Assembly: GCA_018819105.1 (NCBI GenBank)
Contig: JAHJQV010000062.1
Location: 1-64,000, forward strand
Source of the DNA: Gammaproteobacteria bacterium
GTDB taxonomy: Bacteria; Pseudomonadota; Gammaproteobacteria; Xanthomonadales; Wenzhouxiangellaceae
Direction: 5' to 3'
DNA: 64,000 nucleotides
Position numbers and translations under genes: made by a program. Shown here piece by piece: positions 1 through 12,035 of the stretch. Positions within the stretch are counted from its first letter, which is position 1; every line of letters starts with the position of its first letter. The notes under the pieces are model-generated. The model saw only the letters and a list, made by a program, of their open reading frames with translations. It made no database searches and was not told the DNA's origin.

Positions 1-212
1 AAGGCATGGCTCGCAGGTCATGGCCATTCCATGGCCAAGAGCCATAACACAGCGGATGAGTGCTTTCCGGCTCGCCCTGCGGGAGCGCCCCTGAGGCTGC
101 ATTACGGCGTTGCAATCCTTGTCAAGGGCTTGCCATTCACTGCGGATTGCGTCTTGTACTGCAGCCTCAGGACGCGCTCTGAATGTCACAGTATTTCCGG
201 CGGGGTACACTA
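1..212. repeat. Partial copy of a MITE-like repeat (left end outside window)
   Basis: This is the right-hand part of a repeat whose complete copy lies at 35686-35964. The two copies match closely over about 210 bp, with a few substitutions and an indel of about 10 bp near position 145. It ends in the same terminal sequence (CGGGGTACACTA) as the full copy. No protein is encoded. Read on the minus strand, its outermost bases TAG supply the stop codon of the VOC gene at 210-548, so the element has inserted inside that gene. Confidence 0.85.
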
Positions 213-548
213 ATCACGAAAATAACCGGCATAGAAACCCGGCATATCGCGCGGACCCGGTGCACCCTCGTCGCTGCCACCCAGCTCCAGCGCCTTGGCG
301 TGCACGGCATTGCACTGCTCGGGCGTCGCCGCAGCCAGCGCCACCATGGTGCCATTGCCAACCGTGGCCGGGTTGCCGTCGAAGGGCTTGATCACAGCCA
401 TGCCGGTGGCCTCTTCGGTGGCTCCCGACCAGGCCACGAAGCTGTCGTCCTGCATCATTCTGGAGCCCCCCAGCAGACTCAGCAGCTCATCATAAAACGC
501 CACCGCACGCGGCAGATCGTTGGTCCCCAATGTGACGTATCCAATCAT
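210..548 (-). CDS. VOC (glyoxalase/bleomycin-resistance fold) protein, C-terminus truncated by MITE
   Basis: This 112-residue protein has the single-module VOC fold: it opens with MIGYVTLGTNDLPRAVAFY and has a central DGNPATVGNGTMVAL strand, as in small glyoxalase-like proteins. Relatives usually continue after GFYAGYFRD with a D-x-D-G-N stretch and a final strand that holds a metal ligand. Here the frame stops at once, because the TAG comes from the end of the adjacent MITE. About 10-15 residues are therefore missing and the fold may be incomplete. The substrate cannot be told from sequence. The gene may be a recent pseudogene. Confidence 0.8.
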   Translation of the reverse strand: MIGYVTLGTNDLPRAVAFYDELLSLLGGSRMMQDDSFVAWSGATEEATGMAVIKPFDGNPATVGNGTMVALAAATPEQCNAVHAKALELGGSDEGAPGPRDMPGFYAGYFRD

Positions 549-647
549 GGTTTTGCTCCTGTTTGCAGGTTGATGGAATCAAGTTCCAGGGTTTGAAGTT
601 TTATTGTTGTCTCAATGCTTGCTGATCGCCGGACGCTGCTACCGCGC

Positions 648-929
648 CTATTCGACCACCTGAACACCGCGCCAGAAAGCCACCCGCTCCTTGATCTCGC
701 TGGCGGCAGCTTTCGGTTCAGGATAGAACCAGCCCGCGTCCGGATTGCGTTGCTCGCCCACCACCACATCAAAGTAATGCGCCTCGCCCTTCCATGGACA
801 ATGACTGGTGCGCTGGCTGGCGCTGAAATGCGCCATGTTCAATGCCGCACGCGGAAAATAATGGTTGTTCTCAACCACCACGGTGTCGTCGCTCTCGGCG
901 ATGACGGTGCCTTGCCAGATCGCTTTCAT
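648..929 (-). CDS. DUF427 family protein
   Basis: A 93-residue protein matching the DUF427 pattern: MKAIWQGTVIAES near the start, then a VVVENNHYFP strand, a T-S-H-C-P-W-K-G core around residue 42, and a Y-F-D-V-V-V-G / W-F-Y-P-E-P end. The T-x-C-P-x-K-G segment is the most conserved part of the family. The biochemical role is unknown. It is complete, stands alone between the VOC gene and the hydroxylase gene on the same strand, and has no signal peptide, so it should be cytoplasmic. Confidence 0.85.
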   Translation of the reverse strand: MKAIWQGTVIAESDDTVVVENNHYFPRAALNMAHFSASQRTSHCPWKGEAHYFDVVVGEQRNPDAGWFYPEPKAAASEIKERVAFWRGVQVVE

Positions 930-983
930 GTGGTCGTGCTCCTTGATAATAGTATGCCAGGATGAATAAATTGTTCAGGCGGA

Positions 984-1754
984 TCAATCGCGGCGGTCAA
1001 ACGGCTGCCGCAGCAAGCCAGCGATGCTCTGCTCGCTGCCACCCTGCACACCGATGCGCATGCCCATCTGACGTGCAAAATCGCTGCGGGTTCGAAACAG
1101 GCGATCCCAGCAGCTGAAGATGGTGCCGTAGTTGGAGTCGGTGTGCGCGCGGATGGCATGATGATGCACCCAGTGAATGGCTGGCGTGACGATCACCCAG
1201 GACAGCACCTGCTCCAGCCGTGGCGGCAGCCTGACATTGGAATGATGAAACCCGGCCGCCAGCAGCACCAGCGTTTCGAACACCAGCACCGAAGCCAGCG
1301 GCAGCCCCAGCAGCATGATCACTGCAGCCCGCGCGCAGGCCGACAGCAGTACCTCGCCAACATGAAACCGCAGCGCCGAAGTAACATCGAGAAACTCGTC
1401 CTCATGGTGGACGCGATGGAAACGCCACAACAGCGCCAGCTTGTGATTGGCCACGTGCCAGCCGAATATGGCCAGATCCAGCAGCACGATGTCCAGCAAC
1501 AGCCCGGCAGCACCCTGCCACCATTGCGGTCGCCACTGGCTGGCATGTCCGGCTGCCAGCGCGGTCAGCGGCAACACGATCAGCACCGAGGCAGCGACAT
1601 TGATCAGCCACAGGCCAAGGTTGTTGCGCAGGCGGCGCCGACGCTGCCACGACTGTGCCGGCCATTGATCGGCCGCGTGCAGGCGCTCCAGCACAAACAG
1701 CAGCAGCAATAGCGCAGCGGCCACCAGCGCCTTGTACTGCACCAGCGTCTCCAT
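984..1754 (-). CDS. Fatty acid hydroxylase / sterol desaturase superfamily membrane protein
   Basis: A 256-residue membrane protein with the histidine clusters of the di-iron hydroxylase superfamily: HVANH, HRVHH, HHSN and HWVHHH, spread from about residue 100 to 205. These ligate two irons used for O2-dependent hydroxylation or desaturation of lipids. About four or five hydrophobic segments flank the clusters, including one at the N-terminus. The ATG at 1754 overlaps the TGA of the upstream gene (TGATG), and a GTG one codon earlier is also possible. Tight coupling to the transporter-like and dioxygenase genes suggests one transcript. The substrate is unknown. Confidence 0.85.
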   Translation of the reverse strand: METLVQYKALVAAALLLLLFVLERLHAADQWPAQSWQRRRRLRNNLGLWLINVAASVLIVLPLTALAAGHASQWRPQWWQGAAGLLLDIVLLDLAIFGWHVANHKLALLWRFHRVHHEDEFLDVTSALRFHVGEVLLSACARAAVIMLLGLPLASVLVFETLVLLAAGFHHSNVRLPPRLEQVLSWVIVTPAIHWVHHHAIRAHTDSNYGTIFSCWDRLFRTRSDFARQMGMRIGVQGGSEQSIAGLLRQPFDRRD

Positions 1755-2314
1755 CACCGCGCCTGCCCCCGCTGGCGCACACTGATGCTGCGGTAAGGCA
1801 GCAGCAACAACAAGGCGATTATCAGCTTCACCAGGTAATCACCCAGTGCCCAGGTCAGCCACGGCAGACCGGTGCCGACAAAGGCCACGCTGAAAAACCA
1901 GGCCGTGTCCAGTGCCGAGCCAATGCTGCTGGACAGCAGTGGCGGCAGCCACCACTGACCGGCATGGCGCCAGCGGTCAAACAGTCTGACATCGAGCATC
2001 TGTGCCAGCAGGAAGGCGCTGCCGGAAGCCAGCGCAATGCGCGGCGTGGCCAGCCAGGCCGACAGCAGCACCGCCACCACAAAGCCGCCCCACACCAGCC
2101 GTCGCGCCTGCTGTGGTCCGAAGCGGCGATTGCACAGGTCGGTAAGCAGAAACGCCAGTGGATAGGTGATCGCGCCCCAGGTCAGCCAGTCATTGATCGG
2201 GTACTGCACCAGCACATTGGCGCTGACCACCACCAGCACCATGGCCAGCAGATACGGCCACAGCCCGAATCTTGCCGGGGTGCTGGCGGTCTGCTGCGAA
2301 CTGATCCCGCTCAC
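1754..2314 (-). CDS. VUT family (YhhQ-like) putative queuosine-precursor transporter
   Basis: An integral membrane protein with about six hydrophobic segments and the YhhQ/VUT signatures: a VQYP-x6-TWGAITYP stretch near the start, FLLTDLCNRRFG, TPRIALASGSAFLLAQ, and SALDTAWFF. E. coli YhhQ imports 7-cyano-7-deazaguanine, and this member probably moves a similar precursor. I chose the GTG at 2314 because it overlaps the upstream stop as GTGA. The longer frame would need TTG at 2338 and a 28-bp overlap. It is the middle gene of a three-gene set. Confidence 0.8.
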   Translation of the reverse strand: MSGISSQQTASTPARFGLWPYLLAMVLVVVSANVLVQYPINDWLTWGAITYPLAFLLTDLCNRRFGPQQARRLVWGGFVVAVLLSAWLATPRIALASGSAFLLAQMLDVRLFDRWRHAGQWWLPPLLSSSIGSALDTAWFFSVAFVGTGLPWLTWALGDYLVKLIIALLLLLPYRSISVRQRGQAR

Positions 2315-3078
2315 GCCGGCTGCGCCGGATCTATGCAACCCATCTGCGCGGCGCGCCCGCCAGGCAGCGGGGTGTTGCCAGCGCTGCGGTAGCTGAACAC
2401 CAGTGCCAGCTTAACGTTGCTGTCGTGATTGCGACCGGCGGCATGCAACAGACCACTGTGAAACAGCAGCAGATCGCCAGCCTGCAACTCGGCGCGCACA
2501 GCCTGATGCATCAGCGCCCGGTTGTCGTCGCAATCGGTGCGGAAAAATCGCCGTTGATCAAAACGTGCAGCATCGAGCTGCAGGCGGTGGCTGCCGGGAA
2601 TCAGCCGCATGCAGCCATTGCGGGCGGTTTCCCGCCCCAGTGCCAGCCAGGCGCTGATCAGATTGTTTTCACGAAACTGCCAGTAGCGGAAATCCTGGTG
2701 CCACAGCGTGCTGCTGGAATGTTGCGGGTGCTTGGTCATGATGCAGTTGTGATGTGCCAGCTCCAGCCGCACAGACGGCTCGCCCAACAGTTGACGCACC
2801 GCCGCGATCACCGCTGGCTGCAGGGCCCAGTCGCGAAACACCTGTGCCCGTGACCAGGCATCCAGCAAGCGACGCACAGTGTGCCCGCCGGGCTGCTGAT
2901 GGTCCAACGGCGAGCCGGGGTAATGCACATCGGCTTCATATTCCAGCGGGGCAGCTGCCGCGGCCAGCTGCGCGAGCGCGGCTGTCTGCAGGCCTTGCAA
3001 CAGCTCGGTTGCGGCAGCGCCGGGCAGAATCAGGTAACCTTGACGCTGAAAGAAGTCGCATTGTTCGGTTGTCAGCAT
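2311..3078 (-). CDS. Phytanoyl-CoA dioxygenase (PhyH) family protein
   Basis: About 255 residues from the ATG at 3078 (first residues MLTTEQCDFFQRQGYLI). This is a Fe(II)/2-oxoglutarate dioxygenase: WHQDFRYW supplies the H-x-D iron ligands, and LLFHSGLLHAAGRNHD the distal histidine, followed by a basic residue for 2-oxoglutarate. N-LISAWLAL and GCMRLIPGSH are typical PhyH core strands. The frame stays open further upstream (ATG at 3144 or 3123), but that would run into the divergent hydrolase gene, and QGYLILPG matches the usual start of the domain. The substrate is unknown. Confidence 0.8.
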   Translation of the reverse strand: MLTTEQCDFFQRQGYLILPGAAATELLQGLQTAALAQLAAAAAPLEYEADVHYPGSPLDHQQPGGHTVRRLLDAWSRAQVFRDWALQPAVIAAVRQLLGEPSVRLELAHHNCIMTKHPQHSSSTLWHQDFRYWQFRENNLISAWLALGRETARNGCMRLIPGSHRLQLDAARFDQRRFFRTDCDDNRALMHQAVRAELQAGDLLLFHSGLLHAAGRNHDSNVKLALVFSYRSAGNTPLPGGRAAQMGCIDPAQPA

Positions 3079-3124
3079 GACATCGTCTCGTGCTGCCGCT
3101 GCATCTGCAGCCAATGGATCCATT

Positions 3125-4099
3125 ATGTGGTTTGGTATCGACATCACAATCCTTCTGCTGATCGCCACAGGCCTGTTGCTGCTGAGCGTCAGCGCGGCGC
3201 TGGCGATCTGGTATTGGGCCACGCCGGTGGCCTGGTGGTTCCGCTTTCTGGAACGCCGTTATGGTCGCCTGCAGTCGGCTTTCGTCGACATCGACGGTGC
3301 GCGCACCCACCTGCTGTTTCGCGGCCGGAACAATGCCAGCGACGAAACCCCGATTTTGCTGTTGCACGGCCTCGGTGCGGATGCCGATCACTGGTGCCTG
3401 ATGAGTGCGCAGCTGCCTGATCGCCTGCAGCTCATCATACCTGATCTGCCCGGTTTCGGTGACAGCCGGATGCCGGCAAAACCTCCACAGACGCCGCAAC
3501 AGTTTGCCACCTGGCTGATCTTACTGCTGGATGCGCTGCAACTGGAACGCGTGCACGTGGTGGGCAACTCCATGGGCGGCTACATCGCGGCACAGCTGGC
3601 GCACGATGCCCCGGCGCGCGTGGCCAGTCTGTACCTGCTCGCCCCTGGCGGTATTGCCAGTGGTGCCCTCAGCGAATACCTGCAGAACGTCGCCGACGGT
3701 CAGCACAACGCCCTGGTGGTGACCACGTTGCAGCAGCAACGCGAGGTCGCCAGCCTGTGCATGCAGCGTCCGTTGTGGCTGCCGGAACCGATGCACCGCT
3801 GGCTGGCCCGGCGCGCGCTGCGGCAATCGGCGCATACCCAGGCCTGTTTTGATGCCATGCGCTATGCCGCCGAGCCGCTGGAGCAACTGGCCAGCCAGAT
3901 CCGGCAGCCGGCACTGATTGTCTGGGGAGCCTGCGACCGGGTGCTGCATCCGGAGGGGCTGAACATTCTCGCGCAGGCCATGCCGCAGGCACAAACCGTG
4001 CTGCTGGAAAATACCGGTCACCTGCCGATGCTGGAAGCGGCCAGATTGTGTGCGCGGCGCTACCTGGCCTTTCTGGCGGCGCTGCAGCAGCAGGAGTAA
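3125..4099 (+). CDS. Membrane-anchored alpha/beta hydrolase
   Basis: A protein of about 324 residues with an N-terminal hydrophobic anchor (ILLLIATGLLLLSV) and then an alpha/beta hydrolase domain. LLLHGLGADADHW is the oxyanion loop, VVGNSMGGYIAAQLA the nucleophile elbow with Ser, VWGACDRV carries the acid, and ENTGHLPMLE the catalytic His. It resembles lipases and hydrolases of the MhpC/esterase type, and the substrate cannot be named. The start at 3125 (MWFGID) leaves 46 bp to the divergent PhyH gene. An ATG at 3077 would overlap it. Confidence 0.85.
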   Translation: MWFGIDITILLLIATGLLLLSVSAALAIWYWATPVAWWFRFLERRYGRLQSAFVDIDGARTHLLFRGRNNASDETPILLLHGLGADADHWCLMSAQLPDRLQLIIPDLPGFGDSRMPAKPPQTPQQFATWLILLLDALQLERVHVVGNSMGGYIAAQLAHDAPARVASLYLLAPGGIASGALSEYLQNVADGQHNALVVTTLQQQREVASLCMQRPLWLPEPMHRWLARRALRQSAHTQACFDAMRYAAEPLEQLASQIRQPALIVWGACDRVLHPEGLNILAQAMPQAQTVLLENTGHLPMLEAARLCARRYLAFLAALQQQE

Positions 4100-4163
4100 T
4101 CCGTATCAGATCAGTGCAGCGGAAATGACATAGGCGCTGATCGCGAGCAAAAAATTCTGCCCC

Positions 4164-4198
4164 GGAGCGCCAGCGTCCCCGCTGGCATGCATGCCAGC
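4164..4198. repeat. REP-like palindromic repeat
   Basis: The 25 bases from GGAGCGCCAGCG to CTGGCAT recur exactly at 12171-12195. The core GCCAGCG-tccc-CGCTGGC forms a 7-bp stem. It is followed by an overlapping perfect 18-bp palindrome GCTGGCATGCATGCCAGC. It lies between the convergent ends of the hydrolase gene and ppsR. It may help end transcription, but no T-run follows. Confidence 0.6.
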
Positions 4199-4240
4199 CC
4201 CTGTCACTGTCGCGCGTTCATGGGACGCAAGCAATTTCAG

Positions 4241-5059
4241 TTAAAACAACTGCTTCTGGATACCCAGATCGTTCAGAATGCGGCTGGCGATCTCCTCGAT
4301 GGAAGCGTGCGTGGCATTGATCATCGGCACCTTTTCGCGCTGCAGCATGGCCTCGGCGGCGGCAACCTCAAACCGGCACTGCGCCAGCGAGGCGTACTTG
4401 CTGCCAGGACGACGGTTCTCACGGATCTGCATCAGCCGCTCCGGATCGATGGTCAAGCCATACAGCTTGTTGCGGTACTTGCGCAGAAACTCAGGCAATC
4501 TGGTGTCCTCCAGATCGTCATCGGTGAGCGGGTAATTGGCCGCGCGCACGCCGAAGTTCAGCGCCATGTACAGACAGGTCGGGGTCTTGCCCGAGCGCGA
4601 CACACCGACAAGAATCACCTCGGCTTCGGAAAAACTGGTGCGCACGCCATCGTCGTGCGACAGCGCGTAGTTGGTGGCGGCGATGCGATGCTCGTAGTTG
4701 ACCGCATCGTGCATGCTGTGCGCCTTGCCCTTGGACGGCGTGTGTCGCATCCCCAGTGCCTGTTCCAGCGGCTTGAGGAAAATGCCGAACAGATCCAGCA
4801 CCTTGCCATTGCAGCCATGGATGATGGCTGACAGCTCCTCATTGACGATGGTGTTGAACACAATCGGTGCTTGGCCATCGGCGGCAGCGGCAGCGGCCAC
4901 CTCGGCCACCACCTTTTCGGCCTTCTCCACGGTGTCGACAAACGGCACCCGGCGCTGGCGCAATTGCAGGTCTTCAAACTGCGTCAGCAGACTGTGACCC
5001 AGCGTTTCGGCCGTGATCGCGGTGCCATCGGAAATATAAAAGACAGTTCTGTGATGCAT
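4241..5059 (-). CDS. ppsR: Phosphoenolpyruvate synthase regulatory protein (kinase/pyrophosphorylase)
   Basis: A 272-residue DUF299 (PpsR/PDRP) protein. The P-loop GVSRSGKTPT is at residues 152-161, and the N-terminal FYISDGTAITAETLG is the family hallmark. The enzyme inactivates PEP synthase by ADP-dependent phosphorylation of a threonine next to the catalytic histidine, and reactivates it by Pi-dependent dephosphorylation. It diverges from ppsA across only 37 bp, the usual arrangement in gammaproteobacteria, so the partner is clear. Confidence 0.96.
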   Translation of the reverse strand: MHHRTVFYISDGTAITAETLGHSLLTQFEDLQLRQRRVPFVDTVEKAEKVVAEVAAAAAADGQAPIVFNTIVNEELSAIIHGCNGKVLDLFGIFLKPLEQALGMRHTPSKGKAHSMHDAVNYEHRIAATNYALSHDDGVRTSFSEAEVILVGVSRSGKTPTCLYMALNFGVRAANYPLTDDDLEDTRLPEFLRKYRNKLYGLTIDPERLMQIRENRRPGSKYASLAQCRFEVAAAEAMLQREKVPMINATHASIEEIASRILNDLGIQKQLF

Positions 5060-5096
5060 TGGTTAAAATGGCATTTGCATAAAGACGGAAATCATC

Positions 5097-7457
5097 ATGA
5101 CCGAATACATTCTCTGGCTGGATCAGGTTGGTATGGACGACCTGGGACGCGTCGGCGGCAAAAACGCCAGTCTCGGCGAGATGATCAGCCAGTTGGCCGA
5201 TCTCGGTGTCAGCGTCCCCGGCGGATTTGCCACCACCGCCGACGCCTATCGCGATTTCCTCTCCCAGTCGGAACTTGATCAGCGTATCAGAAAGCGGCTG
5301 GAGAGTCTGCCTGACGATGACGTCAACGCACTGACCGCAGCCGGCCGGCAAATCCGCCAGTGGATCATGGACACGCCGTTCCCGGATGCGCTCAACAGCG
5401 CGCTGGAAGCCGCCTGGCAAAAGCTTGCCGAGCAACATGGTGCCGAACCCGAAGTCGCCGTGCGCAGCTCGGCCACCGCCGAGGACCTGCCCGACGCCTC
5501 GTTCGCCGGCCAGCAGGAAACCTTTCTCAACGTGCGCGGCATCGATGATGTCAAGCAGAAGATGCATGCCGTGTTCGCCTCGCTGTACAACGATCGCGCC
5601 ATCTCCTACCGCGTGCATCAGGGTTTTGAGCACCACGACGTGGCGCTGTCGGCTTCGGTGCAGATCATGGCGCGCAGCGACATCGGCGCCAGCGGCGTGA
5701 TGTTCACGCTGGATACCGAATCGGGCTTTCGCGATGTGGTCTTCCTTACCGCCTCCTGGGGCCTGGGCGAGACCGTAGTCCAGGGCGCGGTGAACCCGGA
5801 CGAATTCTACCTATACAAACCCAACATCCGCGCCGGTCGACCGGCGGTATTGCGGCGCAGCCTGGGCAGCAAGGCCGAGCGCATGATTTACGGCGACAAC
5901 GGTGGCACGCTCACCGAGCCGGTGCCCGATGAGTTGCGCCAGCGCTTCTGCATCAGCGACGACGACGCCGAGGAACTGGCGCGCCAGGCCTTGATCATCG
6001 AAGACCACTACGGCAAGCCGATGGACATCGAATGGGGCAAGGACGGTGCCACCGGCAAGATTTTCATCCTGCAGGCACGCCCGGAAACCGTGCAAAGTCG
6101 CGCCAACGCCACCAGCCGTGAACATTACCAGCTGCATGAGCGCGGGCCGATCCTGGCCGAAGGCCGCAGCATCGGCCAGCGCATCGGTGCCGGCAAGGCC
6201 AAGGTGATCGCTGGCATCGAGCAGATGCACGAAGTCCAGCCCGGCGATGTGCTGATCACCGACATGACCGACCCGGACTGGGAACCGGTGATGAAAAAAG
6301 CCGCCGCCATCGTCACCAATCGCGGTGGTCGCACCTGTCATGCCGCCATCATCGCCCGCGAACTGGGCATCCCCGCTGTGGTCGGCTGCGGCGATGCCAC
6401 CACGCGCATCCAGCACGATCACCCGGTCACCGTGTCCTGTGCCGAAGGCGACACCGGCTTCATTTATGACGGCGAGCTGAATTTCGAAATCGTCAACAGC
6501 GATCTGGGGCAGATGCCGGCCGCACCGCTGAAGATCATGATGAACGTCGGCAACCCGGATCGCGCCTTCAGCTTTGCGCAGATTCCCAATGCCGGCGTGG
6601 GCCTGGCGCGACTGGAATTCATCATCAACCGCATGATCGGCATCCACCCGCGCGCGCTGCTGGAGTTTGACCAGCAGACAGCGGAACTGCAGGCCAGCAT
6701 CCGCCAGATGATCGCCGGCTATGCCGATCCAGTCAGCTATTACGTGGATCGCCTCACCGAGGGCATTGCCACAATTGCGGCAGCCTTCGCACCGAATCCG
6801 GTGATTGTGCGGCTGTCGGATTTCAAATCCAACGAATACGCCAACCTGCTCGGTGGCGAGGCCTACGAACCGGATGAGGAAAACCCGATGCTGGGTTATC
6901 GCGGTGCCTCACGCTACGTGGACGACGAGTTCAAGGCCTGCTTCGAACTGGAATGCAAGGCGCTGCTGCAAGTGCGCAACACGCTGGGCCTGACCAATGT
7001 CTGGGCCATGGTGCCGTTTGTGCGCACACTGGGCGAAGCCGAAGAAGTGATCGAAGTGATGCAGCAGTTCGGCCTGAAAAGCGGCGAGAACGATCTGAAA
7101 ATCATCATGATGTGCGAACTGCCGTCGAATGCCCTGCTCGCCGATGAATTCCTGCAGTTTTTCGACGGCTTCTCCATCGGCTCCAACGACATGACCCAGC
7201 TCACGCTGGGACTGGACCGCGATTCCGGCCTGGTCGCCCACCGCTTCGACGAACGCGACCCGGCAGTGAAAAAGCTGCTGGCCATGGCCATCGCCGCCTG
7301 CCGCAAACAGGGCAAATACATCGGCATCTGCGGCCAGGGACCATCGGACTACCCCGACCTCGCCGAATGGCTGCTGGACCAGGGCATAGAAAGCATGTCG
7401 CTGAACCCCGACACGGTGATCGACACCTGGCTGCGACTGGCCAAGCACCAGCAATGA
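5097..7457 (+). CDS. ppsA: Phosphoenolpyruvate synthase
   Basis: A 786-residue enzyme that makes PEP, AMP and Pi from pyruvate, ATP and water, the first step of gluconeogenesis from pyruvate. The N-terminal ATP-binding domain begins with the [10 protein letters not shown] motif. The swivelling phosphohistidine domain has [20 protein letters not shown], in which the Thr-Cys-His includes the PpsR target threonine and the catalytic His. The C-terminal TIM barrel has [13 protein letters not shown] and a late Cys in [11 protein letters not shown]. The length equals that of E. coli PpsA. GGAA eight bases before the ATG serves as ribosome site. The gene is intact. Confidence 0.97.
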
Positions 7458-7502: not shown

Positions 7503-7930
7503 GTAGCCATTGTAGGCCGCGTTGCGTGTCGCTAAACACGCCATTCACGGTCGCGCTGGGACAGTCAACCACTGCCGTCATCCCGGCGCAGGCCGGGATC
7601 CAGTCAATTCAATCGTCGCGCAGCGACACAAAAGAGCAGTAGCCATCACAGCCATCGTAGGCCGCGTTGCGTGTCGCCAAACACGTCATTTACGATCGCG
7701 CTGGGACAGTCAACCACTGCCGTCATCCCGGCGCAGGCCGGGATCCAGTCAATTCAATCGTCGCGCAGCGACACAAAAGAGCAGTAGCCATCACAGCCAT
7801 CGTAGGCCGCGTTGCGTGTCGCCAAACACGCAATTTACGGTCGCGCTGGAACAGTCAACCACTGCCGTCATCCCGGCGCAGGCCGGGAACCAGTCAATTC
7901 AATCGTCGCACAGCGACACAAAAGAGCAGG
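7503..7930. repeat. Three tandem 145-bp repeats with internal palindrome
   Basis: Three nearly identical units start at about 7512, 7657 and 7802, an exact 145-bp period. Each holds a GTTGCGTGTCGC segment and the palindrome CCCGGCGCAGGCCGGG, a form of the dispersed intergenic palindromes common in proteobacteria. A 36-bp piece recurs inverted at 12216-12251. Open frames through the units share the same period and show no sign of being genes. It begins just after the ppsA stop codon. Confidence 0.9.
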
Positions 7931-8534
7931 TACCCACATCACCGTAGCTCAAAATCACTCCGGCAGACTTGCCATTCATCCAATGAGCAATTAAGATCAG
8001 ATCAGGAACATTAAGGGATCAGAGCTTGGACGCACCGGCAAATCATATACAACCAGCACAGAGACGGCATACGTCCGTTGCCCGGTGTTGTCTGCGATCA
8101 GATTCCAACACACCAGCCAACCAGATATCAATGCCAGACCTGAGGAGCCGCGCTGCTCACCTCAGCATCAAGTTCAACCCGGTGCAGATTTGCGCTCACG
8201 TCACTCAGAGTAGCGTACGTCAGCTCAATATCCCGTCAGTTCCGCTCCTGCAACATATTTGAAATCATGTAATGTTAAATACAATCAAACAGACAAGCAA
8301 AACAATGAAGGCAGTTATGATCTGGATAAGCGCTTTCGGACGCGTAGCTAATACTATGGTTGAATGGCAGAATTGCCGTACTGCACTCAATCAAAAACAA
8401 AAATCATCATTTATATTCAATGACTTAAGATCGAATATGGCATGAAAAAGCGTAACAAAAGAGTAGATTGTGCTTTTATTCAATAACATCACAAAATGCG
8501 TATATTTATTCTTTATGAAAATATGGATTAATAA
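7931..8534. other. Intergenic stretch with no recognised gene
   Basis: These 600 bp hold no gene I can support. A 78-codon open frame at 8026-8262 has no ribosome site and no recognisable domain. Base composition shifts from GC-rich to AT-rich from about 8260 onward, leading into the AT-rich gene at 8535. AT-rich hexamers just before 8535 (for example TATATT and TATGAAAAT) could act as promoter, but I cannot fix one. Confidence 0.5.
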
Positions 8535-8855
8535 ATGAAGGAAATATTCCCAATATTATTTGGCATTTTATTTTGTTCAGTGTTTGTTTGGTTTTACTTG
8601 TGCAACAAAATCTTTGATATTCTCCGTACAAGACACTCTGAAAAATACGATGCTATGGGTAAACCGAGTCTGATAATGAACAACTCTATTTCAAACAATC
8701 TACTATTTATGAAGTTTCTATTTAAAAGGGAGTGGCAGGAACTCAATGATGAAGGGCTGGCTAACTTAAGCAAGAGCATGCTTATATTCTTTGTTATTTA
8801 CATAATTTTATTTTTTAGCCTGTGTTTCAGTATCCCACTCGGTTTCGCGCCATAA
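8535..8855 (+). CDS. Small two-helix membrane protein, unknown function (cassette-type)
   Basis: A 106-residue AT-rich gene, unlike its GC-rich surroundings. One hydrophobic helix covers residues 5-25 and a second covers about 82-102. Between them is a polar loop with LRTRHSEKYDAMGKPS and a WQELNDEGL motif. The topology recalls UspB-like proteins, but I cannot assign that family. GAAGGAAA near the start could serve as ribosome site. The TAA stop lies inside the TAACAA box of a possible attC site, as is common for integron gene cassettes. It is probably horizontally acquired. Confidence 0.65.
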   Translation: MKEIFPILFGILFCSVFVWFYLCNKIFDILRTRHSEKYDAMGKPSLIMNNSISNNLLFMKFLFKREWQELNDEGLANLSKSMLIFFVIYIILFFSLCFSIPLGFAP

Positions 8856-9400: not shown

Positions 9401-9802
9401 TGTCTGTACATTGTCCAGCTATACTGGCATCAACTAATTTCTGGGATCAGTTACGCAGATACCTGATCGTACTGGTTAATTTGACCGCAACACCCAAAAC
9501 TCTGGCACGTCAATCCGCGATCAACTCCGATTATATTGATGAATAGGGGTATCAACTAGCCGCGGCGTTGCTCAAATCTGTGACCGGTGTAGGCATCTAC
9601 ACCACACAGAAAGCCCCGGCGCGCACAGCGCCTGATACAGTGGAAGTAAGGTGTTATTTACACGGATACCAGGGCAGATCGGGGCAGAGTCATGGCAAAA
9701 CCTGATTGAACCTGACCCCAGCATGCAGCAATCAAACCGACGAAATGTATGGCAGATGTCTGAAAATGTTGTAGGATAATCGCTATGGATGATGAGTGTC
9801 CT
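9378..9802 (-). mobile_element. Decayed RAYT/IS200-like element, copy A
   Basis: This stretch is bounded by AGACACCCACACTCC on the left and, inverted, GATGAGTGTCCT on the right. Its right 245 bp (9557-9802) repeat in the same orientation at 11041-11283 (copy B). It contains a broken transposase start on the minus strand. It sits directly upstream of the DUF4231 gene, and copy B sits directly downstream of its partner gene. Confidence 0.6.
9557..9693 (-). pseudogene. Fragment of IS200-like (REP-associated) transposase, copy A
   Basis: Reading from the ATG at 9693 gives [11 protein letters not shown], then a TAA stop. The same frame then continues ITPYFHCIRRC, RRGFLCG and DAYTGHRFEQRR before a second stop. 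This matches the N-terminus of the Y1-type transposases that begin with an LPR motif and a P-Y-H-C-x2-R-C segment. It is clearly dead, with in-frame stops and no HUH or catalytic tyrosine region. Confidence 0.7.
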
Positions 9803-9846
9803 AAGCCCTGTGTCCCAGACTACGCCGCAACTAGGAGAAGCGCTTC

Positions 9847-10344
9847 ATGTGGAGAAGAAGGAAGCCACCGTCGCAAACCGAATCGACGCCTGAGACTGCT
9901 GAAGAGTTTTGTCTCGCGGTGACTCGGGGTTTTGAAGAGAAGGCATCACACAACAAAAACGAATCAATGCTGTGTTTTTGGGCTTCAATGGGCGGAGCGC
10001 TTCTGGTACCAGTATTTGTAAGCTTGGGTCCGGGCATAGCTGAAGCATTGGGATGTCCAAACTTCCAATTCTGGCTGGAAAAAGTAATTCCAAGTTTACT
10101 TTCTGTATGTGTTGCATTTTCAACGGGTTGGCTACAACTTCGTAAGCCACAGCAGCTTTGGTCCTTGTATCGCACCTCGCAACGTGAACTCGAAGATAAT
10201 CTCCAAAAATATCGCTTTTCCGTTGGGGATTACGCCGAAGCTGCTAACAGAGAGAAAACGTTAGTCGAAAGGGTCACAAAAATTGCGCTGGACGCTCACT
10301 ACGCATGGCTCCCTATGGTTCCTAACCCGGAAAACATGGGCTGA
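9847..10344 (+). CDS. DUF4231 / SLATT-like two-helix membrane protein
   Basis: A 165-residue protein. Residues 1-40 are polar, a hydrophobic helix lies at 43-62 (FWASMGGALLVPVFVSLG) and a second at 78-97. A charged helical tail contains RKPQQLWSLYRTSQRELED, then Y-x-F-x2-G-D-Y. The W-x2-Y-R / L-E / Y pattern after a second helix is typical of DUF4231 proteins, which I place with the SLATT superfamily of predicted pore-forming effectors. These are linked in published comparative genomics to nucleotide-dependent conflict systems. It is followed 13 bp later by a GTP cyclohydrolase II-like gene, and the two probably form one operon. Assignment is by eye. Confidence 0.7.
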   Translation: MWRRRKPPSQTESTPETAEEFCLAVTRGFEEKASHNKNESMLCFWASMGGALLVPVFVSLGPGIAEALGCPNFQFWLEKVIPSLLSVCVAFSTGWLQLRKPQQLWSLYRTSQRELEDNLQKYRFSVGDYAEAANREKTLVERVTKIALDAHYAWLPMVPNPENMG

Positions 10345-10357
10345 GATAGGGCGTAAA

Positions 10358-10945
10358 ATGGAGCATTCTTCAACAAACCTCAAAACCAAATTCGGTGAGT
10401 TTAAATTTCACTGCTTCTCGTGGGGGCACCATGAAGAAGACAACATTCTAGTTCTTGAAAATGATCAATTTTCAGGTACTCCGTTGGTACGTGTACAGAG
10501 TGCATGCTACTCGGCGGAAATTTTTCGAAGTCTCGATTGCGATTGCCATGCTCAGCTTTCGAAAAGCCAGAGGCTTATTGCCGAGAGTGGTGGATATTTG
10601 ATCTATATGCTCTGCGATGGCAGGGGCGCAGGCCTTCTAAATAAATTGCGTGGTATGGCGCTAGGTGACAAGGAAGGTCTAGATACATCTGAGGCATATA
10701 AAAAGTTGGGACTTCCTCAAGATCCGAGGGGGTACCTTCGGGTTTCTGAGGTGGTCAAGTATTTTGGACTCAAGCAAATTCAGCTGCTTACGAACAACCC
10801 CAGGAAGATCGAAGGAATGACCAGCACTGGCATTGCCGTTGAAAGAGTCCCGTTAGAGATCGATTCAACAAATGAATCGAGGCCGTATCTTGAGGCCAAA
10901 GCCAAAAAGATGGGACATCTTTTATCTGAGTTTGTACAGTATTAA
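10358..10945 (+). CDS. Divergent GTP cyclohydrolase II-like protein, partner of the DUF4231 gene
   Basis: A 195-residue protein, almost the length of E. coli RibA, that aligns along its whole length. Cys50, Cys61 and Cys63 match the zinc ligands. Asp122/Arg124 match the catalytic D-x-R, and Thr145 and Lys150 in LLTNNPRK match the GTP-binding residues. Two changes stand out: the Q-E-G-R motif is C-D-G-R (87-89), and the conserved active-site Tyr (E. coli 105) is Met100. No other riboflavin gene is nearby. I chose the ATG at 10358 (AGGG ahead of it, homology from KFGEF). A longer frame would overlap the upstream gene. It may make a modified nucleotide rather than a riboflavin precursor. Confidence 0.85.
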
Positions 10946-10948
10946 TCA

Positions 10949-11283
10949 AGGACACCCACACTCCATCACTCATCACCGCACAGGCAGCGATATCGATGGC
11001 AAACACCGAAGACAACAGCGCCAGACGCTCAACAATCCAGCCGCGCCGATGCTCAAAACTGCGACCGGTGTAGGCATCTTCACCACAGAGAAAGGCACGG
11101 CGCACACAGCGCCCGATGCAGTGATAGTAAGGCGTGGCTTGAACGGAAACCAGGGCAGAACGGGGCAGAGTCATGGCATAACCTGATGAGACCAGACCCC
11201 AGCATGCAGCATCCGATGGCGCGAAAGCTATGGCAAATGTCTGAAAATTTTGTAGGATAATCGCTATGGGTGATGGGTGTCCT
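10949..11283 (-). mobile_element. Decayed RAYT/IS200-like element, copy B, with terminal inverted repeats
   Basis: The element starts with AGGACACCCA (10949-10958) and ends with its inverse TGGGTGTCCT (11274-11283), giving a 335-bp unit. Its right 240 bp are a direct repeat of copy A. It encodes only the first 70 codons of a transposase, so it cannot move by itself. The left end begins 4 bp after the stop codon of the cyclohydrolase gene. Confidence 0.6.
10965..11174 (-). pseudogene. Truncated IS200-like (REP-associated) transposase, copy B
   Basis: From the ATG at 11174 the frame reads [11 protein letters not shown], then [29 protein letters not shown], and [11 protein letters not shown] with no stop. 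It agrees with the first 70 residues of a Y1 transposase family that usually continues with an N-H-Y-H (HUH) motif straight after VMS. Here the match ends exactly there, and unrelated codons follow. Without the HUH motif and catalytic tyrosine it is inactive. Confidence 0.75.
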
Positions 11284-11342
11284 GAGATACCCTTTTCGAG
11301 GATGCCATGATACTTGAGCATCTAATTATTTGGAAAGATAAC

Positions 11343-12035
11343 ATGATTAATAATGTTGGAAGTATTTTAAAAATATCAATTTATATGTTAATATACTCGT
11401 ATATGCAATCGGCTGCTCCCTGCGATTATTCAATACCATGGATCGGTGAAGATTTAGCCATGCGCATTATGAGCGATAAAACTATCAAAATCGAATCATT
11501 AAATGACGGGAATAACTTATCTATAGCCGTACAATCATATCTTTGGAAACAAATTAATACATTTAGCAAGGATGTTGAATTCAAGAATATCAATGAAGTT
11601 GTAAATAATATTGATAATGACCAGGATGAAATCATATTCCTTGTACAGATACTTTATAGAATGTATGGTGATAAAATTATTTCTGGTACAAAATTTGATA
11701 AAAAATATTTTGATGATTGGAATAATAATTATCTTATTAATAATCAGAACAAGCTCGCGCTATATCATTTGGTACTTGGTAATAAAAATAATAATGAATA
11801 CATATCAGATGAGGAAATCAAGCACCTTAAAACAGATACTTTCGATCTTGATATATTAAGAAATTTAGCTATCAAATATGAGAATCAAGGTGAATTAGAC
11901 AAGGCGCATGGCTACTATCTGTTGGCGGTTGAATCTGGATCATATTCCGCTCTGTATGGTTTATCTAGCATCGAGCATAAGATTGATGAATGCACAAGTC
12001 GAGGTAAAGATTTAATGTTATTTCTTATCAAGTAG
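11343..12035 (+). CDS. AT-rich exported orphan protein with a Sel1/TPR-like segment
   Basis: A 230-residue protein from the ATG at 11343, which has GGAAAG ten bases ahead and starts a signal-peptide-like hydrophobic stretch (ISIYMLIYSYMQSAA). The mature part is rich in Asn, Lys, Asp and Ile. Near the C-terminus, LAIKYENQGELDKAHGYY followed by A-V-E-S-G-S-Y-S-A-L fits one Sel1-like repeat. The gene is far more AT-rich than its neighbours, which argues for recent transfer. I do not recognise the family. A GGAACACCCATACT motif, close to the element ends at 10949 and 11283, follows 17 bp after the stop. Confidence 0.6.
   Translation: MINNVGSILKISIYMLIYSYMQSAAPCDYSIPWIGEDLAMRIMSDKTIKIESLNDGNNLSIAVQSYLWKQINTFSKDVEFKNINEVVNNIDNDQDEIIFLVQILYRMYGDKIISGTKFDKKYFDDWNNNYLINNQNKLALYHLVLGNKNNNEYISDEEIKHLKTDTFDLDILRNLAIKYENQGELDKAHGYYLLAVESGSYSALYGLSSIEHKIDECTSRGKDLMLFLIK

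Follow-up and report, generated by a model that had tools for sequence, protein, structure and literature searches.

A subfamily of GTP cyclohydrolase II (GCHII) was shown, by comparison of sequences, to co-diverge with a SLATT membrane protein encoded directly upstream of it in four phyla, which we take to be Pseudomonadota, Acidobacteriota, Cyanobacteria and Actinomycetota. In the same comparisons this subfamily was shown to stand apart from the RibA enzymes of riboflavin synthesis, with a fixed active-site change and a retained metal site. The pair is probably a mobile two-gene conflict module that combines an enzyme with a membrane effector. It came to attention in a window of 64,000 nucleotides (by window we mean this whole stretch of DNA) from a gammaproteobacterium of the Wenzhouxiangellaceae, for which a sequence-only reading had proposed a defence or stress module.

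The gene pair and its setting in the window

The two genes had been described as lying 13 bp apart between copies of one element, and both descriptions proved accurate (Table 1). The measured gap is 13 bp, with gene 2 taken to start at its ATG (the mechanical ORF starts at TTG 10283), and the left copy of the element is 83% identical to part of the right copy. This element, of about 320 bp, has 17 matches across the genome of the window, its own copy counted. A Pfam search with the ORF that spans the right copy gave no match; the ORF presumably resembles a REP-associated transposase.

Table 1. Position of the gene pair and the flanking repeat copies in the window
Feature	Coordinates	Strand	Remarks
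Gene 1, SLATT/DUF4231 two-helix membrane protein, predicted effector	9847-10344	+	165 aa
Gene 2, GCHII-like enzyme	10358-10945	+	195 aa from ATG 10358
Repeat element, left copy, partial	9558-9805		sequence match to right copy
Repeat element, right copy	10950-11300		same orientation as left copy

The G+C content is 48% for gene 1 and 45% for gene 2, compared with 59% for the window. Two very A+T-rich ORFs lie near the pair, at 8535-8855 (34% G+C) and at 11307-12035 (30% G+C), the second with a weak TPR match under cut-off. The low G+C content of the pair, the A+T-rich neighbouring ORFs and the flanking repeats point to the pair in the window being acquired DNA. The empty site could not be read, as ppsA, the pair and the ORFs of the island had no match in stretches of 14-20 kb from five relatives, and of the neighbours purT was found in relatives. 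Directly 3' of ppsA, at 7522-8014, overlapping ORFs contain repeated peptide blocks.

The proposed identity of gene 1 as a SLATT/DUF4231 protein was upheld by both curated profiles, with 30.4 bits against Pfam DUF4231 (cut-off 24.7) and 62.6 bits against the NCBIfam SLATT domain NF033634 (cut-off 41; E 3.6e-17). The score against Pfam SLATT_1 was 16.7 bits, under the cut-off of 26.3. Hydropathy gave two hydrophobic stretches, at about 42-60 and 73-98, and the predicted model (pLDDT 90.4) is all-helical, with mainly helices 18-68, 71-99, 101-124 and 135-157. From the hydropathy and the model the protein is predicted to have two membrane helices and a helical cytosolic part, as expected of the family. 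A helical part past the second hydrophobic stretch is conserved (Q97, P101, W105, Y108, R109, Q112 and R113) and could be a candidate docking place for a ligand or for the enzyme. A PDB fold search with the model found no convincing relative (best E 0.46). Among the PADLOC 2.0.0 models, gene 1 matched only Cas6b, at E 0.058, and gene 2 matched none.

Gene 2 had been called a GCHII, and it passed the cut-offs of both Pfam PF00925 (GTP_cyclohydro2; 137 bits, cut-off 23.3, E 4.3e-40) and the wider NCBIfam subfamily NF001591 (PRK00393; 169 bits, cut-off 148). It fell below the RibA equivalog TIGR00505, at 162.9 vs a cut-off of 205.85. A fold search with its predicted model (pLDDT 84.3) matched the Helicobacter pylori and Escherichia coli GCHII structures (4rl4/2bz0) at 36-38% identity. 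UTP cyclohydrolase (7eev, 7ej3), which we take to be a GCHII-like fold used outside riboflavin synthesis, shares the fold with a structural-match identity of only 22-24%.

Recurrence of the pair and its genomic neighbours

An alignment of three paired GCHIIs, from the window and two plasmids, gave search patterns that used GCHII alone. When 84,980 species genomes were scanned with these patterns, 61 stretches matched and 18 of them encoded a relative of the paired GCHII. When the 18 loci were searched with a profile built from seven plasmid and window SLATT sequences, 17 proved to have a SLATT gene immediately upstream of the GCHII gene, on its strand. In the 18th (L059) the GCHII is broken and no SLATT was found in the 8.4 kb examined; this locus was left out of alignments and trees. 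The claim of a recurrent SLATT-GCHII adjacency without other rib genes is thus borne out (17/18 loci, no recurring rib gene), and the adjacency is not confined to one strain, a concern raised with the claim, since it extends to 17 genome loci and two plasmids. By record titles the 17 hosts are the proteobacteria Oxalicibacterium, Onishia, Pseudomonas, Halomonas, Psychrosphaera, Achromobacter, Bradyrhizobium and Mesorhizobium, the cyanobacteria Cyanobium and Aphanothece, and the actinobacteria Salinibacterium, Arthrobacter, Winogradskya and Nocardioides, together with an Aurantimonadaceae, another alphaproteobacterial MAG and a Bryobacterales MAG. The two plasmid pairs come from Eleftheria terrae, where the genes overlap, and Rhizobium sp. 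CB3060, where an IS66 element lies between them. They were the top matches (61% and 53%) among the best 60 of 206 records in a plasmid GCHII search, and the next match among these 60 was a RibBA at 45%.

In 19 unsplit pairs the gap between SLATT and GCHII ranges from -47 to +14 bp, with some start codons chosen by the analyst. In an all-against-all comparison of ORFs, SLATT was present in 24 of 25 stretches and GCHII in 21. ORF families shared by seven or four stretches were antisense frames of SLATT or GCHII, or belonged to the nucleoside-phosphorylase operon described below. Beyond SLATT and GCHII, one family was shared by three pair loci and a few families by two. The unit consists of two genes.

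Among relatives of the window 101 genomes were searched for the SLATT and one had it, and in the genus of L044 it was again present in one genome, out of 199; in each case this was the genome that carries the locus itself. A wider search with the SLATT alignment, covering 398 genomes across the phylum, gave any match in seven; the six besides the window were weak, and the 2.4-3.4 kb examined around each contained no paired GCHII. The pair is rare and patchy across genomes. tRNA genes lie beside it in 2 of 17 loci, without a pattern. Prophage or phage cargo was considered and rejected: the SLATT had no match in 50,697 phage records, and none of 19 GCHII pattern matches in IMG/VR was confirmed as a relative.

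Distances between SLATT proteins were correlated with those between GCHIIs in a mirror-tree comparison (r 0.76; 0 of 10,000 permutations as high). Without the four actinobacteria r was 0.85 (again 0 of 10,000 as high). Common descent alone could yield either correlation. For both genes pN was far below pS in the comparisons made (window/L042, L043/L045 and L049/L050), in which pS was mostly saturated.

Known defence genes had been anticipated near copies of the pair and are present beside some of them (6/17 loci, five with strong matches). AbiEi/AbiEii lie within three ORFs of the pair in L043, genes for an AAA protein and a McrC-like protein (McrBC) abut it at L053:2686-6978, complete type I restriction-modification genes are near it in L055 and an OLD-like ATPase is near it in L051. 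Housekeeping neighbours occur too (ribF and transketolase in L042). For the 101 proteins encoded up to three ORFs away on either side of the pair in 17 loci, PADLOC gave 345 families; for 95 control proteins, taken from the same contigs at a distance of 21-45 kb in 16 genomes, it gave 49. About 213 of the 345 families come from four proteins, namely the L055 type I genes (35, 7 and 89) and the L051 OLD-like ATPase (82), so that family counts were dropped as a measure of defence enrichment; the control, too, had a TIR-type match and a gene for type I restriction. No strong defence match was found in 11 of 17 loci, where one-by-one attribution with PADLOC covered 30 of the 101 neighbour proteins in all.

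In three loci the pair has a convergently oriented neighbour of the dGTPase type (L049:7815-9140, L050:7706-9028 and L055:7612-8985). Between L049 and L050 the proteins of the pair share 75% identity. The three dGTPases are just 33-38% identical, and this neighbourhood may therefore have arisen more than once. These genes would suit a reading that we judge improbable, in which the enzyme would destroy GTP or dGTP on infection, with dGTPase systems as the model, and SLATT would be an independent effector or a membrane anchor. The other partner of SLATT, a nucleoside phosphorylase, presumably also consumes nucleosides, which would agree with such depletion. However, the dGTPase may be a housekeeping gene, GCHIIs are slow enzymes and so ill suited to draining a GTP pool, and the strict coupling to SLATT is left unexplained. 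Overall, the context of the pair is suggestive of defence, and a defence reading is the one favoured here.

Active site of the paired enzyme and the riboflavin question

The 20 paired GCHIIs form one clade relative to 39 canonical RibAs (support 100/100) in a tree with some rows on long branches. The 39 canonical domains are that of E. coli, 25 from the family of the window (L011-L035) and 13 from pair-bearing genomes. The 13 were picked after their residues were known, while the 25 were not selected by residue; of the unpaired three-cysteine domains in L071-L100, L091 (genome G106), which has the cysteines without the Tyr and the Asp126 stretch, was left out. In E. coli numbering, Cys54, Cys65, Cys67, Arg94, Asp126 and Arg128 are kept in 20/20 paired GCHIIs, as are Thr149, Asn150 and Asn151 (the TNN motif). 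Gene 2, in its own numbering, keeps Cys50, Cys61, Cys63, Asp122 and Arg124, and has Met100 at the position of E. coli RibA Tyr105. The paired enzyme shares with canonical RibA (2bz0, 4rl4) the fold, the zinc cysteines, Asp126/Arg128 and the TNN motif, and differs from it in its separate clade, in having no recurring rib context and in changes at Tyr105, Glu92, Leu55 and position 127. Tyr105, which we take to be a catalytic residue of GCHII, is Tyr in 39/39 canonical domains, and in three further non-paired GCHIIs beyond these, whereas the paired enzymes have Leu (11) or Met (9) there. The other changes, Glu92 to Asp, Leu55 to Tyr and Pro at position 127, occur in 20/20. The retention of the zinc cysteines and Asp/Arg in all 20 would argue for catalysis rather than mere binding.

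With the Asp/Arg and zinc site kept and Tyr105 gone, a formylated ring-opened nucleotide is the expected product. Spoonamore et al. in 2006 reportedly found that Streptomyces coelicolor SCO6655, with Met at the place of Tyr105, converts GTP to formylated FAPy, and the reverse change in this enzyme is said to bring back the normal product. SCO6655 presumably shares with the paired GCHIIs both the predicted FAPy product and the Tyr-to-Met switch; we know of no pairing of SCO6655 with SLATT. A weak point of the prediction is that SCO6655 has Met, yet 11 of the 20 pairs have Leu. The plasmid GCHIIs of Streptomyces and Rhodococcus, taken up as an SCO6655-like lead, were dropped because both carry Tyr. 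In passages of PMC9478397 and PMC7288161 the formylated compound is the normal intermediate and the product of archaeal GCHIII, and in archaea separate enzymes deformylate it. The paired enzymes would share their predicted product with this FAPy-forming GCHIII, whose fold, as given in PMC7288161, is GGDEF-like.

The genome of the window has a rib operon with ribD, ribE, ribBX, ribH and nusB (L040:4315-8926), and apart from gene 2 only the RibBX-like protein encoded there, in which the GCHII half lacks the cysteines, matches PF00925. The sequence-only reading had named, as a point against its own proposal, that gene 2 might be the organism's only RibA. This stands in so far as no second GCHII with zinc cysteines was found in the genome of the window, and is weakened by 9/9 relatives that lack both a canonical RibA match and SLATT and by 11/18 scan genomes with a canonical RibA. 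A cysteine-less RibBX-like protein as the only match, gene 2 aside, was seen in the genome of the window and in nine high-completeness relatives (among L036-L039 and L060-L070).

An accessory flavin enzyme, in which GCHII would supply or boost a riboflavin precursor and SLATT would anchor it or aid flavin export, is in our estimate quite unlikely. It would account for a lone zinc-cysteine GCHII in a genome whose rib operon (ribD, ribE, ribBX, ribH) is otherwise complete, and for the absence of a canonical RibA among the matches read in 7 of 18 scan genomes. In these seven the further matches read lack the three cysteines; G117 has no further match, and G112 has one weak match besides those read. 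ribF adjoins the pair in L042, and bacterial formamidases that complete a FAPy intermediate exist according to a passage of PMC9478397. However, Tyr105 is lost in 20/20 paired GCHIIs, a separate canonical RibA with three cysteines and Tyr105 is present besides the pair gene in the other 11 of the 18 genomes, and rib genes are absent among the recurring neighbours of the pair. The host RibBX is still filed by NCBIfam as a bifunctional DHBP synthase/GCHII, although barely over the cut-off (517.6 vs 513), and SLATT switches partner to a nucleoside phosphorylase operon. Relatives at least 94% complete and without a canonical RibA match (9/9) were also without SLATT and had only the cysteine-less protein, so such genomes solve the GTP-opening step otherwise or lack the step. 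The plain answer of a riboflavin enzyme was weighed seriously on account of the lone zinc-cysteine GCHII and is held quite unlikely on all these counts.

SLATT partners and the proposed working of the module

On plasmids of Klebsiella (L006), Agrobacterium (a Ti plasmid, L007), Comamonas (L008) and E. coli (L009), SLATT ends a nucleoside-phosphorylase operon, and no paired-type GCHII was found in these 10 kb loci. The operon, at about 1-5490, has four genes, for a protein of ~1000 aa, a small protein, the nucleoside phosphorylase and SLATT, and the three genes upstream of SLATT are homologous across the four loci. The nucleoside phosphorylase match was over cut-off in 4/4, with a response-regulator match under cut-off at the N-terminus of the phosphorylase in three. 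The ~1000 aa protein had no Pfam match in L006 and L008, where it was searched, and the small protein, searched in L008 only, gave a response-regulator match under cut-off. The operon looks like an uncatalogued conflict system. In the SLATT tree, L007 stands beside the GCHII-linked Rhizobium SLATT (96/84) and L008 among the Eleftheria, Achromobacter and cyanobacterial GCHII-linked SLATTs. A single clade for the SLATTs of L006-L009 was rejected (p-AU 3.6e-17), with L009 and L051 on long branches. The supported branches require at least three partner changes, which may equal one gain and two losses. An effector type shared between two enzyme inputs is known in modular nucleotide-signalling defence systems. 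According to passages of PMC7159879, nucleoside phosphorylases are predicted signal makers in nucleotide-signalling conflict systems, and SLATT in other conflict systems is a predicted nucleotide-responsive pore.

SLATT is coupled to an enzyme acting on nucleotides or nucleic acids in TIR-SLATT, GAP1, SLATT-associated RADAR and RT-SLATT, as described in parts of PMC7159879, PMC9503650, PMC7699616 and PMC9122126. SLATT-associated RADAR has ATPase and adenosine deaminase genes, whereas only SLATT and GCHII recur widely at the pair loci, and no Pfam match to a RADAR-type ATPase or adenosine deaminase was found among three nearby ORFs of the window. Panoptes (OptS/OptE), in passages of PMC12657218 and PMC12657230, resembles the pair in that an enzyme handling nucleotides and a two-TM effector make up an operon of two genes, and in being rare and widely scattered. 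However, OptS, an mCpol cyclase, produces cyclic dinucleotides whereas the enzyme of the pair is a zinc-site hydrolase of PF00925, OptE (S-2TM-beta) has a beta-barrel sensor domain whereas the effector of the pair is all-helical in its predicted model, and the gene order is reversed. The pair is not a member of Panoptes and is at most similar in working, with different enzyme and effector folds. Searches for SLATT or DUF4231 with 'cyclohydrolase' as whole words gave no co-mention in the open-access papers searched, a set without Burroughs 2015, reportedly the founding SLATT survey. Looser literature searches, and term searches of five main texts, gave no SLATT-cyclohydrolase link among the matches listed.

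In the conflict module favoured here, the enzyme would open the imidazole ring of GTP or of a close purine nucleotide and, without Tyr105, would release a FAPy-type formylated ring-opened nucleotide, not the riboflavin precursor. The product, or the loss of the substrate, would set the state of SLATT, and a triggered SLATT would permeabilise the inner membrane and stop growth or phage production. As no third gene recurs, sensing must reside in the pair itself, and as none recurs to process the product, the product should act directly. Infection may alter the activity of the enzyme, or a constant enzyme product may keep SLATT closed until a phage removes it, in the manner of Panoptes. There, in passages of PMC12657218, the constant product of the synthase restrains the two-TM effector; this is achieved without a third gene, so a two-gene unit of this kind needs no sensor gene. 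SLATT activated by the product (as in CBASS) and SLATT restrained by it are equally compatible with our analysis. Phage defence, the ligand and the direction of gating are what we infer for the pair.

The same small size and patchiness would fit a toxin-antitoxin-like arrangement, which we regard as a rather unlikely alternative. Here SLATT would be a membrane toxin constantly neutralised by GCHII or its product, and the pair would serve stress or selfish maintenance in place of defence against phages. The two overlapping or close genes and the lack of a recurring sensor gene agree with this, and a Panoptes synthase can restrain a 2TM effector, as a passage of PMC12657218 has it; the metal site and Asp/Arg kept in 20/20, however, favour catalysis over mere binding. 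This alternative overlaps the conflict module and differs from it mostly in purpose. As a more specific and doubtful form of the conflict module, the pair may be a guard system, in which constant FAPy-ribose-5-phosphate or a relative would shut the SLATT pore and seizure, depletion or destruction of the nucleotide by a phage would open the membrane. The phage triggers would be the seizing or depleting of guanine nucleotides, or the destroying of small signalling nucleotides.

With this pair, the enzyme class of the committed step of vitamin B2 synthesis joins the enzymes that apparently drive two-TM effectors in bacterial conflict, and the annotation 'GTP cyclohydrolase II' does not always mean a riboflavin gene. 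Nature has in effect tried one SLATT type with two partners, a cyclohydrolase and a nucleoside phosphorylase, and this may help to tell what SLATT proteins sense. With only two genes the module lends itself to direct tests in E. coli K-12. One concrete candidate for a new kind of immune signal is a guanine nucleotide that is formylated and ring-opened; if this is true, FAPy would be a new class of immune signal that is neither a cyclic nor an NAD-derived nucleotide.
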